From Mesorhizobium sp. (GTDB lineage Bacteria > Pseudomonadota > Alphaproteobacteria > Rhizobiales > Rhizobiaceae): a stretch of 64,000 bases of DNA. The position numbers and the translations under genes are program-made. Shown here piece after piece: positions 4,527 to 10,814 of the stretch. Every line of letters starts with the position of its first letter. Positions within the stretch are counted from its first letter, which is position 1. The stretch spans positions 1-64,000 of the forward strand of contig NZ_SUHQ01000004.1 in NCBI RefSeq assembly GCF_004962245.1. Reading direction: 5' to 3'. The notes beneath the pieces were generated by a model. That model saw nothing but the letters and a program-made list of their open reading frames with translations, searched no databases and had not been told where the DNA came from.

Positions 4527-4997
4527 ATGGCCAGACTAACCATCAACGGCGCGCCACGTGATATCGAGGTCGATCCGGACACGCCGCTGCTGTGGGTGAT
4601 CCGCGAGCAGATTGGGCTTACCGGGACGAAATACGGTTGCGGGGTTGCGGCCTGCGGTGCCTGTACCGTCCATATAGACGGCGTCGCCACGCGCTCCTGC
4701 GTGCTTCCGGTGAGCGCCGTCGAGCCGGACCAGCAAATCACCACGATCGAGGGGCTTTCGCCGGACAGTTCGCATCCGGTCCAGCAGGCGTGGCTGGCGC
4801 TCGATGTGCCGCAATGCGGCTACTGCCAGGCCGGCATGATCATGGCCGCGGCGGGTCTGCTCATGCAGAACCCGAACCCGACGGACGAAGACATCAACGC
4901 CGAGATCACCAATATCTGCCGCTGCGGCACCTACAACCGGGTGCGCGCCGCGATCAAGCTGGCCGCCAATGGCGGCGAAGCTGCGCAGCGCGGTTGA
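4527..4997 (+). CDS. 2Fe-2S subunit of an isoquinoline 1-oxidoreductase-type molybdenum hydroxylase
   Basis: 156 residues, close to the usual size of IorA-like subunits. It carries two 2Fe-2S clusters that pass electrons from the molybdenum site. Plant-type ferredoxin domain with Cys38, Cys43, Cys46 (GCGVAACGAC) and Cys58; helical C-terminal domain with Cys97 and Cys100 (QCGYC) and Cys131 and Cys133 (CRC). No signal peptide; in this family the small subunit can be co-exported with the Tat-targeted large subunit. Start ATG has AAAGGA 8 bases upstream; a longer open frame from 4425 is rejected. First gene of the operon, 11 bases before the large subunit. Confidence 0.9.
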   Translation: MARLTINGAPRDIEVDPDTPLLWVIREQIGLTGTKYGCGVAACGACTVHIDGVATRSCVLPVSAVEPDQQITTIEGLSPDSSHPVQQAWLALDVPQCGYCQAGMIMAAAGLLMQNPNPTDEDINAEITNICRCGTYNRVRAAIKLAANGGEAAQRG

Positions 4998-5008
4998 GGA
5001 GAACGTTC

Positions 5009-7183
5009 ATGAACGCCATAATTTCCATCTCCCGCCGCAGCTTCATCGTCGGCGTGGCCTCCACGGCCGGCGGCCTGTCGCTAGGCTTCAACCTGCCGTT
5101 CATCAAGCCGGCACTTGCCGAGGGCGCCGAGACGGCGGCGGAGATCAATGCCTGGGTGGTGATCAGGCCCGACGACACGGTGGTCATCCGCATCGCCCGC
5201 TCCGAGATGGGGCAGGGGACGCTGACCGGCCTGGCGCAACTCGTCGCCGAGGAGTTGAATTGCGACTGGTCCAAGGTCACGACCGAATATCCGTCGCCGG
5301 CCCAGAACCTCGCGCGCGATCGCGTGTGGGGCAACTTCTCGACGGGGGGCAGCCGCGGTATCCGCGAGTCGCACGAATATGTGCGCATCGGTGGCGCCGT
5401 CGCGCGCGAGATGCTGATCGCCGCCGCGGCCGCCGAATGGGGCGTGCCGGCCAGCGAATGCACCGCAAGGATGGGCATGGTCACGCATCCGGCATCAGAT
5501 CGCGCCACCTTTTATGGACAGTTGGCCGCTGCTGCCGCGCGGATGACGCCGCCTGCAAATGTTACGCTGAAGGACCCGAAGGATTGGACCATAGCCGGTA
5601 AGCCGCTGCCGCGGCTCGACACGGCCGACAAGCTCAACGGCAGCCAGGTCTACGGCGTCGACCTCAAGCTGCCCAACATGCTCAACGCGGCGATCCGGGC
5701 CTGCCCGTACTTCGGCGGCAAGGTGGAAAGCTTCGACGCAGCGGCGGTCGCGGGCATGCCCGGCGTGCGCACCGTCGTTCAGGTCGACGAGACCGCCGTT
5801 GCGGTTGTCGCCGATACGTGGTGGCGGGCGAAGACCGCCCTCGATGCCCTGCCGGTCGTCTGGGACGAAGGTCCCAACCGGCAGGTCACCAGTGCCACGA
5901 TCGCGGCGATGCTCGAAGAGGGGCTCGGCGCGAATGACGCCTTTGTCGGCGCCGAGCAAGGCGATGCTGGTGCTGCCCTGTCCGCTACCGACCGGACGGT
6001 CACTGCGACCTATGCCTTCCCCTATCAGAACCACGCGACCATGGAGCCGATGAACGCGACGGCGCTCTACACGCCGGAGCGGTGCGAGGTATGGGTGCCT
6101 ACCCAGAACGGCGAGGCGAGCCTTGCGGCGGCAGCCGAGGCCGCCGGCCTGCCGGTGCAGCAATGCGAGGTGCACAAGATCCATCTCGGCGGCGGCTTCG
6201 GCCGGCGCGGCAACTTCCAGGACTATGTGCGTCAGGCGGTCAGCATCGCCAGGCAGGTGCCAGGAGCGCCCGTAAAGCTCATGTGGTCGCGCGAGGAGGA
6301 CATGCTGCACGGCGCCTACCACCCGACCACGCGATGCCGGCTGAGGGGCGCGCTCGACGCGGACAGCAACCTGACCGCGCTGCACATGCGCATATCCGGC
6401 CAGTCGATCCTTGCCTCGGTGCGGCCGGAGGGCATGCAGAACGGCATGGACCCGGTCGTCTTCCAGGGCCTCGTCCTCAATGGCACGGAAGGCACGCTGG
6501 GATACACGGTGGACAATCTGCTTGTCGACCATGCCATGCGCAACCCACCGATCCCACCAGGCTTCTGGCGTGGCGTGAACCTCAACCAGAATGCGCTCTA
6601 CGTCGAGTGTTTCATGGACGAACTCGCCCATGCGGCCGGCGTCGACCCGCTCGCCTTCCGCCGTAAGCTGATGGCTAACCATCCCAAGCACCTCGCCGTG
6701 CTGGACGCGGTAGCCGAGCGGATCGGCTGGGACACCCCGCCCGCGGACGGCGTTCACCGCGGCCTGGCGCAGATCATGGGCTTCGGCAGTTATGTGGCGG
6801 CGGCAGCGGAGGTTTCGGTCACCGACGGGCAGCTCAGGATCCACCGCATCGTGGCGGCCACCGATCCGGGTCATGTCGTCAACCCCGCGCAAGTGGAACG
6901 GCAGGTCGAGGGCTCCTTCGTCTACGGTCTTTCCGCCTGCATCTACGGCGAATGCACCGTCAATGGCGGTCGCATGGAGCAGGAGAACTTCGACAGCTAC
7001 GAGGTCGTGCGCATGGCCGACATGCCGGCGGTGGAGACGATCATCCTGCCGTCCGGCGGCTTCTGGGGCGGCGTCGGCGAGCCGACCATCGCGGTCGCCG
7101 CGCCGGCCGTCCTCAATGCGATCTTCGCCGCCACCGGCAAGCGCATCCGCACGCTGCCGCTGAAGAACCATGACCTCGCATGA
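5009..7183 (+). CDS. molybdopterin-binding large subunit of an IorB-type molybdenum hydroxylase, Tat-exported
   Basis: 724 residues, xanthine oxidase superfamily, aldehyde-oxidase/IorB branch. N-terminus SISRRSFIVGVAST is a twin-arginine signal, so the folded Mo enzyme is predicted in the periplasm. Seen: GQGT after the first beta hammerhead region, cofactor loop GGGFGRR near residue 400, and GVGEP with the active-site Glu at about 691. These enzymes oxidise aldehydes or N-heterocycles with water as oxygen donor and hand electrons to cytochrome c. Start ATG has GAGGAGA 7 bases before it. Its 3' end overlaps the next cytochrome gene by 14 bases. The place of this enzyme in front of sulfur-oxidation genes is unusual; its substrate is unknown. 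Confidence 0.9.
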   Translation: MNAIISISRRSFIVGVASTAGGLSLGFNLPFIKPALAEGAETAAEINAWVVIRPDDTVVIRIARSEMGQGTLTGLAQLVAEELNCDWSKVTTEYPSPAQNLARDRVWGNFSTGGSRGIRESHEYVRIGGAVAREMLIAAAAAEWGVPASECTARMGMVTHPASDRATFYGQLAAAAARMTPPANVTLKDPKDWTIAGKPLPRLDTADKLNGSQVYGVDLKLPNMLNAAIRACPYFGGKVESFDAAAVAGMPGVRTVVQVDETAVAVVADTWWRAKTALDALPVVWDEGPNRQVTSATIAAMLEEGLGANDAFVGAEQGDAGAALSATDRTVTATYAFPYQNHATMEPMNATALYTPERCEVWVPTQNGEASLAAAAEAAGLPVQQCEVHKIHLGGGFGRRGNFQDYVRQAVSIARQVPGAPVKLMWSREEDMLHGAYHPTTRCRLRGALDADSNLTALHMRISGQSILASVRPEGMQNGMDPVVFQGLVLNGTEGTLGYTVDNLLVDHAMRNPPIPPGFWRGVNLNQNALYVECFMDELAHAAGVDPLAFRRKLMANHPKHLAVLDAVAERIGWDTPPADGVHRGLAQIMGFGSYVAAAAEVSVTDGQLRIHRIVAATDPGHVVNPAQVERQVEGSFVYGLSACIYGECTVNGGRMEQENFDSYEVVRMADMPAVETIILPSGGFWGGVGEPTIAVAAPAVLNAIFAATGKRIRTLPLKNHDLA

Positions 7184-9715: not shown

Positions 9716-10035
9716 TGGCTCGCGCGCTTATCAACATGCCGAAGACGGCCAAGCGCGGCGAAATCGTCGAGGTCAGGGCGATGATCGCGCATCCAATGGA
9801 AACCGGCTACCGTATCGGCCCGAACGGCTCCAACATCCCCCGTGACATCATCCGCCGCTTCGCCTGCAGCTATGACGGCGAGGAGGTGTTTTGGGCCGAT
9901 CTCCATCCGGCAGTGTCGGCCAATCCGTTCATCGCCTTCACGCTCGTCGCTTCGACGAGCGGCGTGATCGAGTTCACTTGGACCGACGATGCCGGAAGGA
10001 CGCAAACGGCGTCCGCCACAATCACGGTGGGGTGA
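9715..10035 (+). CDS. soxZ: SoxZ, partner of SoxY
   Basis: 106 residues, an immunoglobulin-like beta-sandwich protein that binds SoxY. Seen: PKTAKRGEIVEVRAMIAHPMETGYR at the N-terminus and NPFIAFTLVASTSGVIEFTWTDDAG near the end, both diagnostic. No signal peptide, as expected, because it is co-exported with SoxY. Starts on the overlapping TAATG with soxY and ends on TGATG with soxA. GAGGA lies 9 bases before the start. Confidence 0.94.
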   Translation: MARALINMPKTAKRGEIVEVRAMIAHPMETGYRIGPNGSNIPRDIIRRFACSYDGEEVFWADLHPAVSANPFIAFTLVASTSGVIEFTWTDDAGRTQTASATITVG

Positions 10036-10814
10036 TGCGAGCGCTCTGGCGGCCCGCAACCGTCGGTGTCGCTGCTGTTTGCAGCATTGTCTCCGCTGCC
10101 GGCATCGAAGACGGCGAGAAGCGCTCCGGCTTCGACTTCATGACGCCGGAGACACAGGCTTTGCAGTCCGACGACATGAGCAACCCCGGCATGCTGTGGG
10201 TGCTGCAGGGCGAGCAGCTCTGGCAGCAGGCGGAAGGCAGGGCGGATGTCGCCTGCGCCGGCTGCCATGGCGATGCCTCCCAGACGATGCGCGGCGTTGC
10301 CGCGCGCTACCCGGCCTTTGACGAGGCGACGGAGCGGCCGATCGATCTTGCCGGGCGTGTCAGCTCCTGCCGCGCGGAGCGGCAGCAGGCCGAGCCGCTG
10401 GCGCCGGAGTCTGACGCGTTGCTCGCCCTGACGACCTATGTGGCGCATCAGTCGCGCGGCATGCCAATCACACCTGCGACCGATGCCCGCCTCGCGCCGT
10501 TCCGCGACAACGGCCGGCGTCTGTTCCAGAGCCGCATCGGCCAGCTCGAGCTCTCTTGCGCCTCTTGCCACGACGACAATTGGGGCAAGCGGCTCGGCGG
10601 CAGCGCCATCCCGCAAGCGCATCCAACCGGCTATCCGCTCTACCGGTTGGAGTGGCAGACGGTCGGTTCGCTGCAACGGCGCCTGCGCAACTGCATGATC
10701 GGGGTCAGGGCCGAGCCCTTCGCCTTCGGCGCAGCGGAACTCGTGGACCTGGAACTCCATCTGACGGAGCGGGCCAGCGGCATGCTGGTCGAGACGCCGG
10801 CCGTGCGGCCGTGA
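10035..10814 (+). CDS. soxA: SoxA, diheme cytochrome of the SoxAX complex
   Basis: 259 residues. Signal segment about 4-23. Two heme sites, CAGCH at 74-78 and CASCH at 175-179, so this is the diheme form. Cys220 in RLRNCMIGVRAEP is the expected ligand (persulfidated in characterised SoxA) of the catalytic heme, and AAELVDLELHL follows as in the family. Start ATG overlaps the soxZ stop. It is the last gene of the operon: the 197 bases after it contain no soxB, soxC or soxD, only non-coding sequence up to the convergent ABC genes. Confidence 0.93.
   Translation: MRALWRPATVGVAAVCSIVSAAGIEDGEKRSGFDFMTPETQALQSDDMSNPGMLWVLQGEQLWQQAEGRADVACAGCHGDASQTMRGVAARYPAFDEATERPIDLAGRVSSCRAERQQAEPLAPESDALLALTTYVAHQSRGMPITPATDARLAPFRDNGRRLFQSRIGQLELSCASCHDDNWGKRLGGSAIPQAHPTGYPLYRLEWQTVGSLQRRLRNCMIGVRAEPFAFGAAELVDLELHLTERASGMLVETPAVRP

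Follow-up and report, generated by a model that had tools for sequence, protein, structure and literature searches.

What reaction does a sulfur-oxidation (Sox) operon carry out when it has no SoxB, the enzyme that releases sulfate, and begins with the genes of a molybdenum hydroxylase? Genome annotation usually equates Sox genes with thiosulfate oxidation, and the question is raised by an operon at positions 4527–10814 of a 64,000-nucleotide stretch of Mesorhizobium sp. DNA (assembly GCF_004962245.1, contig NZ_SUHQ01000004.1, positions 1 to 64,000; hereafter the window). Its eight genes lie on the same strand in the order iorA-iorB-cytochrome c-soxF-soxX-soxY-soxZ-soxA. In known Sox systems SoxAX joins sulfur to a cysteine of SoxY, and the canonical SoxY C-terminus, GGCGG, is the arm that carries the sulfur intermediates. 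SoxCD, a molybdenum enzyme acting on SoxY-bound sulfur, is a precedent for a molybdenum partner, and molybdenum hydroxylases of the xanthine-oxidase family oxidize carbon. We find that the operon represents a real, conserved, SoxB-free module with a changed SoxY arm and a standing molybdenum partner, left without a function in its single earlier description. Tentatively, and with somewhat less than even confidence, we propose that this module is a variant of Sox: SoxAX would charge the arm of SoxY with a sulfur compound that is not thiosulfate and is probably organic, and IorAB would oxidize the carbon of that compound.

The initial annotation of this DNA, made from the sequence alone, had described a tightly packed eight-gene sulfur operon, and that description is borne out by both the layout and the family assignments (NCBIfam, Pfam). 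There is a single 11-base gap, and the remaining junctions overlap by 1 to 14 bases. On the plus strand, iorA (4527..4997) encodes the [2Fe-2S] small subunit of a xanthine-oxidase-family molybdenum hydroxylase, with Fer2 and Fer2_2 over the Pfam cut-offs, and iorB (5009..7183) the molybdopterin large subunit, with MoCoBD_1 and MoCoBD_2 domains and a twin-arginine-like N-terminus. These are followed by a small single-heme cytochrome c (7170..7532; Cytochrom_C), probably the heme subunit of a flavocytochrome, and by soxF/fccB (7519..8781), the flavoprotein of flavocytochrome c sulfide dehydrogenase (FCSD_central, 165.4 bits; FCSD-flav_bind, 90.5 bits). The cytochrome c subunit of SoxAX is encoded by soxX (8778..9230), which at 64.9 bits scores just above the TIGR04485 cut-off of 61 and has no Pfam match. 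Next come soxY of the AACIE-arm type (9227..9715, starting at GTG 9227 or ATG 9233), soxZ (9715..10035; TIGR04490, 92.1 bits, cut-off 76) and soxA (10032..10814, starting at GTG 10032 or ATG 10035), which has two CxxCH motifs and matches TIGR04484 at 222.5 bits (cut-off 110).

Is the missing SoxB encoded elsewhere in the same genome? The assembly, 6,902,289 bases in 122 contigs and rated 100% complete, was searched against the NCBIfam curated cut-offs. A full soxB cluster at another place, which would have made this a simple split locus, was looked for and not found: no SoxB scored over cut-off (best 113.7 bits vs. 550), and below its cut-off the SoxB model is unspecific, since at E ≤ 1e-20 it also gives matches in 6 of the 14 genomes used as controls, one of them E. 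coli. No SoxC scored over cut-off either (best 50.7 bits vs. 420), so that two of the three genes the initial annotation had marked for a genome-wide check are absent at this stringency, SoxD lying outside the search. No GGCGG SoxY reached its 125-bit cut-off, with three places below it, and the only SoxA over cut-off is the operon's own. The genome thus shares SoxX, SoxA and SoxZ with the canonical system (SoxAXYZBCD), along with the cysteine and arginines of SoxA described below, but lacks SoxB, SoxC and a GGCGG SoxY over cut-off; from the truncated system (SoxAXYZB without SoxCD) it differs in SoxB. Because the sulfate-releasing enzyme is absent, the substrate is likely to be something other than thiosulfate.

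The SoxY arm is altered as well. At 211 bits, window SoxY clears the 172-bit cut-off of TIGR04487, "SoxY-related AACIE arm protein", but at 98.8 bits it stays below that of the GGCGG SoxY model (125). Its C-terminus reads VTLAACIEDLS (codons 9680..9712, plus strand), with AACIEDLS at the arm end in place of GGCGG, and its cysteine aligns with the carrier cysteine of the GGCGG arm in solved SoxY chains. Its nearest named relatives, with identities of up to 94%, come from Mesorhizobium, and AACIE is invariant across the 24 relatives of our SoxY alignment (A1). A broader rule, [A/P/S]-A-C-x-[E/D], the cysteine being followed by 2 to 7 residues, holds in 112/112 arms from a wider range of loci, among which a few genomes are counted twice. 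Arms of these relatives also read AACLEG, AACTEE, PACxE and SACxD, and some of the proteins score below the TIGR04487 cut-off. This SoxY subfamily is therefore already catalogued, under a family name that states no function; no paper came up when the literature was searched for SoxY together with AACIE. The AACIE group also falls outside a survey of SoxY arms published in 2024, because sequences without GGC were dropped from it; for other divergent SoxY proteins the survey proposes roles in carbon or organosulfur metabolism (PMC11237559). The change from GGCGG to AACIE, as read from sequence, is compatible with an altered cargo and is no proof of one.

If the molybdenum hydroxylase belongs to this reaction, its genes should stay with soxXYZA beyond one genome, and a survey of the gene string had been suggested by the initial annotation. 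From the 200 relatives returned by a contig scan with alignment A1, the 80 with the best matches were taken as loci (L033–L112), giving 81 with the window; all were found through an AACIE-type soxY. Contig ends cut 14 of the 81, leaving 67 testable loci (66 relatives and the window). In all 67, iorA, iorB, soxX, soxY, soxZ and soxA lie together on one strand within 7.5 kb, many of these loci being closely related and so not independent events. SoxB-like frames were found in none of the 80 relatives' loci, with flanks of at most 10 kb on either side. A further 18 regions of the same order, chosen from 30 soxY matches (14 taken from the 26 over the TIGR04487 cut-off and all 4 below it), gave iorB in 18/18 and iorA in 17/18, the remaining region being cut by a contig end. 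The string occurs in alphaproteobacteria, in betaproteobacteria (Polaromonas, Massilia, Noviherbaspirillum, Undibacterium) and in gammaproteobacteria (Luteimonas, Steroidobacter). Conservation of the string in 67/67 loci argues that the molybdenum hydroxylase is a standing partner and no chance neighbor.

The flavocytochrome genes are less constant. Among the 67 loci, 55 have both the small cytochrome and soxF, one has soxF alone and 11 have neither (soxF in 56, the cytochrome in 55). Because it co-occurs with soxF, the small cytochrome is more likely the heme subunit of the flavocytochrome than a partner of IorAB. The 'FccA-like' label of the initial annotation is supported to this extent, by position and by co-occurrence in 55 of the 56 soxF-bearing loci, but general cytochrome c models are the sole NCBIfam and Pfam matches of the 7170–7532 gene. 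Since soxF is present in only 56 of 67 loci, what all the operons have in common is IorAB together with SoxAXYZ, and the flavocytochrome is optional there.

Carriers of the module vary in whether they also encode SoxB. We surveyed 49 genomes of unstated completeness, a few of them metagenome bins, drawn from a set of 50 of the 80 loci. SoxB scored over cut-off in 13 and in none of the other 36; 17 of those 36 had sub-threshold matches only and 19 had none at E ≤ 1e-20. SoxC scored over cut-off in 17/50 carrier genomes. In a second set, 26 genomes of the same order with an AACIE SoxY over cut-off, SoxB was found in 19 and was absent over cut-off in 7; 13 of the 19 belong to one genus, and the nearest relatives of one of its SoxY proteins are from Bradyrhizobium. 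A SoxB encoded elsewhere could thus serve the AACIE operon in SoxB-bearing carriers, though not in the window genome. Because the module is found both with and without a canonical Sox system, it is not merely a split part of one.

Residues expected to act in catalysis are kept throughout. In SoxA (1h31 chain numbering), the cysteine heme ligand, Cys222, and Arg 206, 218 and 227 are retained in 108/108 rows, 2 of the 110 being cut. Together with the TIGR04484 and TIGR04485 matches over cut-off, this suggests a SoxAX whose active-site heme is cysteine-ligated. Position 208 behaves differently: in AACIE loci it is Glu in 107/108 rows and Asp in one, whereas 22 canonical rows, which exclude AACIE loci, have Ser (17), Arg (2), Asn (1) or Glu (2). 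Going by motif spacing, we equated position 208 with Arg109 of TsdA, whose equivalent in SoxA is described as Lys or Ser (PMC4423706); the arginine that is invariant across SoxA and TsdA is kept. Glu at this position would be compatible with a less anionic substrate. As a clean marker of the AACIE type it is weakened, since two SoxB-linked canonical rows also have Glu. In a SoxA tree, a branch with support 75/86 divides 107 rows from 23, and the proteins of AACIE loci lie together to one side of it (1 change); the tree carries a warning of long branches.

For SoxF, the FRCPPG cysteine is present in 61/61 rows and the GWCP cysteine in 60/61, the remaining row being a gap; we take these to be the two active-site cysteines of flavocytochrome c sulfide dehydrogenase. 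With both cysteines and the FCSD domains, SoxF is assigned to that enzyme and is predicted to oxidize sulfide. Each of the eight IorA cysteines is kept in at least 68 of 69 loci. IorB has the GVGEP glutamate, presumably the catalytic Glu of the molybdenum hydroxylase, in 69/69 loci, a twin-arginine-like motif in 67/69, and cysteines at 151, 359, 386 and 649 in 69/69 rows. [2Fe-2S] domains, molybdenum-cofactor domains and glutamate together place IorAB, by its predicted features, in the xanthine-oxidase family. Since these residues are kept in SoxA, SoxF and IorAB, no component looks decayed. In all of its NCBIfam matches IorB falls well short of the family cut-off (best 169.6 bits vs. 780), and so it names no substrate such as isoquinoline or an aldehyde. 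Its best solved relative, both by sequence (247.5 bits) and by Foldseek with a model of modest confidence, is the large subunit of the Gluconobacter membrane-bound aldehyde dehydrogenase (8gy3). The fold family is shared with 8gy3 and with the periplasmic aldehyde oxidase PaoABC (5g5g) at an identity of about a quarter (26%); the predicted IorB model, with a mean predicted local distance difference test score (pLDDT) of 68.2, suffices for the fold family only and not for the pocket. We know of no linkage of 8gy3 or PaoABC to sox genes.

Has such an operon been described before? A second sox cluster of Starkeya novella appears in a paper that we take to be by Kappler and colleagues. Published in 2013, it comprises soxX2Y2Z2A2F2 with xanthine-oxidase-family genes (Snov_1975-1982) and has no SoxB or SoxCD (PMC3797975). 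Its gene content, SoxAX, SoxYZ, a flavocytochrome and a molybdenum enzyme, is that of the window operon, a match made to the published description, and relatives in Ancylobacter carry the string. The second-cluster SoxAX and SoxYZ went undetected by proteomics, and one flavocytochrome subunit was seen, at a low level, on substrates other than glucose; transcript levels were very low in cells on glucose, methanol and thiosulfate alike; the authors considered the cluster either without functional significance or in need of other growth conditions (PMC3797975). The passages of that paper on the cluster report no arm type, spread or linkage. The gene arrangement is therefore already in print, and this is the sole description met in our literature search; there may be others. 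A search for isoquinoline 1-oxidoreductase with soxA found no paper, and the passages of PMC11582611 hold nothing bearing on the AACIE operon.

A parallel among catalogued carriers is the TIGR04557 family associated with pyrroloquinoline quinone (PQQ), which, like the window operon, pairs a SoxYZ-type carrier with a periplasmic dehydrogenase that acts on organic compounds. It differs in that SoxY and SoxZ are fused and the enzyme is a PQQ enzyme, with no SoxAX named beside it in the passages of PMC12997753 and PMC11237559; window SoxY and SoxZ score below its cut-off. The window genome also encodes such a PQQ-associated fused SoxYZ-like carrier (TIGR04557, 288.9 bits).

What, then, might SoxAXYZ and IorAB do together? 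As molybdenum hydroxylases of the IorAB family oxidize carbon and SoxAX joins sulfur to SoxY, the simplest joint reaction would be oxidation of a sulfur compound with an oxidizable carbon that SoxY holds or delivers. In our proposal the SoxB-free variant would work in the periplasm, where its components are predicted to reside. SoxAX would load a sulfur compound other than thiosulfate, probably organic, onto the AACIE arm, and IorAB would oxidize a carbon of the arm-bound or just-released molecule. The carbon part would then depart as an aldehyde, acid or oxo-compound, and the sulfur would either stay on SoxY as a persulfide or leave as sulfide, to be oxidized by the SoxF flavocytochrome where present; electrons would pass to cytochrome c. 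What the sequences show is the gene set and its conserved linkage, a genome with no SoxB over cut-off, an altered arm, and catalytic residues retained in SoxA, SoxF and IorAB; the cargo, the order of the steps and any SoxY-IorB contact are what we infer. The initial annotation had already suspected a different reaction from that of known Sox systems. Absence of SoxB and SoxC over cut-off and the 67/67 linkage agree with that suspicion, while an organic cargo, and action of the molybdenum enzyme on it, are still proposals. With no sulfate-making enzyme, a changed arm and a molybdenum hydroxylase in every testable locus, thiosulfate is probably the wrong reading for the AACIE module. Should the proposal be true, a common, uncharacterized route of organic-sulfur turnover would exist in alpha-, beta- and gammaproteobacteria.

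A hint of the substrate comes from five Roseomonas-type loci (L082, L083, L084, L089, L099), in which the string lies downstream of same-strand ATP-binding cassette (ABC) transport and amidase genes. In L082, the one annotated locus of the five, the upstream genes encode an NMT1-type binding protein with sub-cut-off likeness to the sulfonate-binding family, a permease, an ATPase, a GntR regulator, an amidase over the allophanate hydrolase cut-offs, and a deacetylase-domain protein weakly like the allantoinase PuuE (78.5 bits, cut-off 424.6). A TauE-like gene stands behind soxA on the opposite strand in L082, and in four of the five loci altogether. By gene content, this setting suggests uptake of a nitrogen- and sulfur-containing organic compound, for example a cyclic thioureide. 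Our proposal also has a more specific form. SoxAX would join a thiol or thione, such as a cyclic thiourea or thio-heterocycle, to SoxY as a mixed disulfide, and the AACxE arm would enter the active site of IorAB, which would hydroxylate the carbon beside the sulfur, so that the oxo-compound leaves and a persulfide stays for the flavocytochrome. We regard this form as rather unlikely; if true, it would amount to protein-tethered organosulfur oxidation, with the molybdenum hydroxylase filling the place of SoxB and SoxCD in the known cycle.

Several observations weigh against the proposal. The Roseomonas-type setting is confined to one lineage, and in the window the operon's neighbors on the opposite strand, a polyamine-type ABC transporter and an aldehyde dehydrogenase, contain no pointer to an organosulfur substrate. 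Substrate, product and protein contact are each predicted from gene content and residues. A reverse search covered 397 genomes from the order, with two candidates per genome scored and neighborhoods read by eye from match lists; 45 IorB matches scored at least 1074 bits, the next full-length match reaching 885. No more than about 3 kb separates 39 of the 45 from a SoxY match in those lists, and one more (L166) also has soxXYZA, making 40/45, a count in favor of the proposal. Against it, the other five (L165, L167–L170) have no sox genes in the stretch examined, and therefore IorAB can probably work without SoxYZ. Among 20 proteins scanned around the sox-free loci (two of them from L166), no common neighbor theme appeared. 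On the supporting side, mean pairwise identity over 69 loci is highest for IorB (0.75), followed by IorA (0.73), SoxY, SoxZ and SoxA (about 0.62) and SoxX (0.50). IorB identities track those of SoxY (r 0.88), SoxZ (0.89) and SoxA (0.83), likewise in its favor, but linked genes co-vary by shared descent, and these correlations carry no species-marker control; IorB tracks SoxX (r 0.53) and IorA (0.63) less closely, in part because of cut or misassigned rows. Finally, SoxA Arg206 and Arg218 are likely the holders of thiosulfate. As the SoxA arginines are kept in 108/108 rows and two SoxB-linked SoxA proteins also have Glu208, thiosulfate may still be a substrate.

That possibility underlies one rival, a split or reduced thiosulfate-sulfide system in which SoxAXYZ makes a SoxY-thiosulfonate, SoxB or another hydrolase elsewhere completes the cycle, and IorAB is a co-regulated passenger. 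Besides the kept arginines, it is favored by the SoxB found elsewhere in 19/26 and 13/49 genomes, but it is poorly suited to the window genome and the 36/49 genomes that have no SoxB over cut-off, and a passenger gene would hardly be retained in 67/67 loci. SoxH is stated to stand in for SoxB in a Sulfurimonas strain (PMC11237559), and the SoxH-related model TIGR04558 has sub-threshold matches in 37 of 50 carrier genomes. Only one further genome of the 50 has it over cut-off, however, and in the window genome the sub-threshold match (194 bits) lies on another contig, adjoining the PQQ-type fused SoxYZ; SoxH is thus not favored as a SoxB substitute. Expression and genetics point the same way, as far as the passages of the two papers go: on thiosulfate the Starkeya cluster shows very little expression (PMC3797975), and of the two soxY genes of Bradyrhizobium diazoefficiens only soxY1 is essential for thiosulfate oxidation, soxY2, only presumed to be the AACIE copy, being dispensable (PMC5748708). 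We consider the split system clearly unlikely.

Two further rivals keep IorAB active but remove its action on a SoxY-linked molecule. The genes could serve side by side, with an organosulfur compound cleaved elsewhere, IorAB oxidizing the freed aldehyde or heterocycle, SoxAXYZ and the flavocytochrome taking the sulfide or thiol, and the shared substrate keeping the genes together. The closeness of IorB to a periplasmic aldehyde dehydrogenase (8gy3) would suit this, as would the kept catalytic cysteines of SoxF and the SBP56/methanethiol-oxidase-type protein (585.8 bits) in the window genome. SBP56 is over cut-off in just 12 of 50 genomes, that of the window among them, however, and sulfide disposal predicts a constant soxF, yet the operon lacks soxF in 11/67 loci and SoxAXYZ in none (the rest of those genomes was not searched for soxF); we hold this arrangement to be rather doubtful. 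Alternatively, SoxAX and SoxYZ could protect or maintain the molybdenum enzyme, through its sulfido ligand or a conserved cysteine, and IorAB would be a plain aldehyde or heterocycle oxidase. In favor of this, IorB is the best-conserved component, and its four cysteines are invariant in 69/69. To our knowledge, however, most molybdenum hydroxylases of the xanthine-oxidase family have no Sox partners, 5/45 close IorB relatives have no nearby sox genes, and the flavocytochrome, common in the loci, would be left unexplained. Even with a precedent in SoxYZ-like carriers beside PQQ alcohol dehydrogenases, proposed in the passages seen to protect or aid those enzymes (PMC12997753, PMC11237559), such a support role appears very unlikely.

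An obligate upstream enzyme was also considered. SBP56 (PF05694) methanethiol oxidase was rejected in this role on the 12/50 count, and the window genome's own copy, at 240845–242224 of contig C37, is unlinked to the operon. Contig C46 of the same genome holds the PQQ-type fused SoxYZ and, at about 93.8–96.3 kb (7772–10288 of L181), a second divergent SoxY ending in DGCA, a SoxZ-like gene and a flavocytochrome-like gene, the last named by eye; a SoxA-like match there is weak (32.8 bits). This set may be one more SoxYZ-flavocytochrome unit that lacks SoxAX and SoxB.

Around the operon itself, an OmpR-family response regulator (3492..4232, minus strand) is divergently transcribed and is a possible regulator of the operon; it is paired with a histidine kinase (2014..3495, minus strand; HAMP, HisKA, HATPase_c). 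By a strict test, a kinase-regulator pair like that of the window stands near the operon in 19 of 57 long-flank loci, which makes the regulator a frequent though not a fixed neighbor, and a cytochrome like that of the window's 1355–2017 gene is found in 22/57. Downstream of soxA, the 197 bases that the initial annotation had noted as gene-free (10815–11011) are so, and are followed by an ABC ATPase gene on the opposite strand.

Among the relatives, the operon is on plasmids in Methylobacterium sp. NMS14P (L114), with a gene annotated as mddA (methanethiol S-methyltransferase) some 8 kb away, and in Neorhizobium galegae (L113; a 2.1-Mb plasmid). In a record titled Mycobacterium sp. KBS0706 (L069), the SoxA encoded in the operon clusters with that of Inquilinus limosus in the SoxA tree; probably the record is mislabeled or mixed, or the operon was transferred. 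Further along the window, a single reading frame at 17422–19305 fuses lactonase-like and flavin-reductase-like parts; it adjoins genes for a luciferase-like monooxygenase, an aldehyde dehydrogenase and a polyamine-type ABC transporter, and resembles a separate catabolic cluster.

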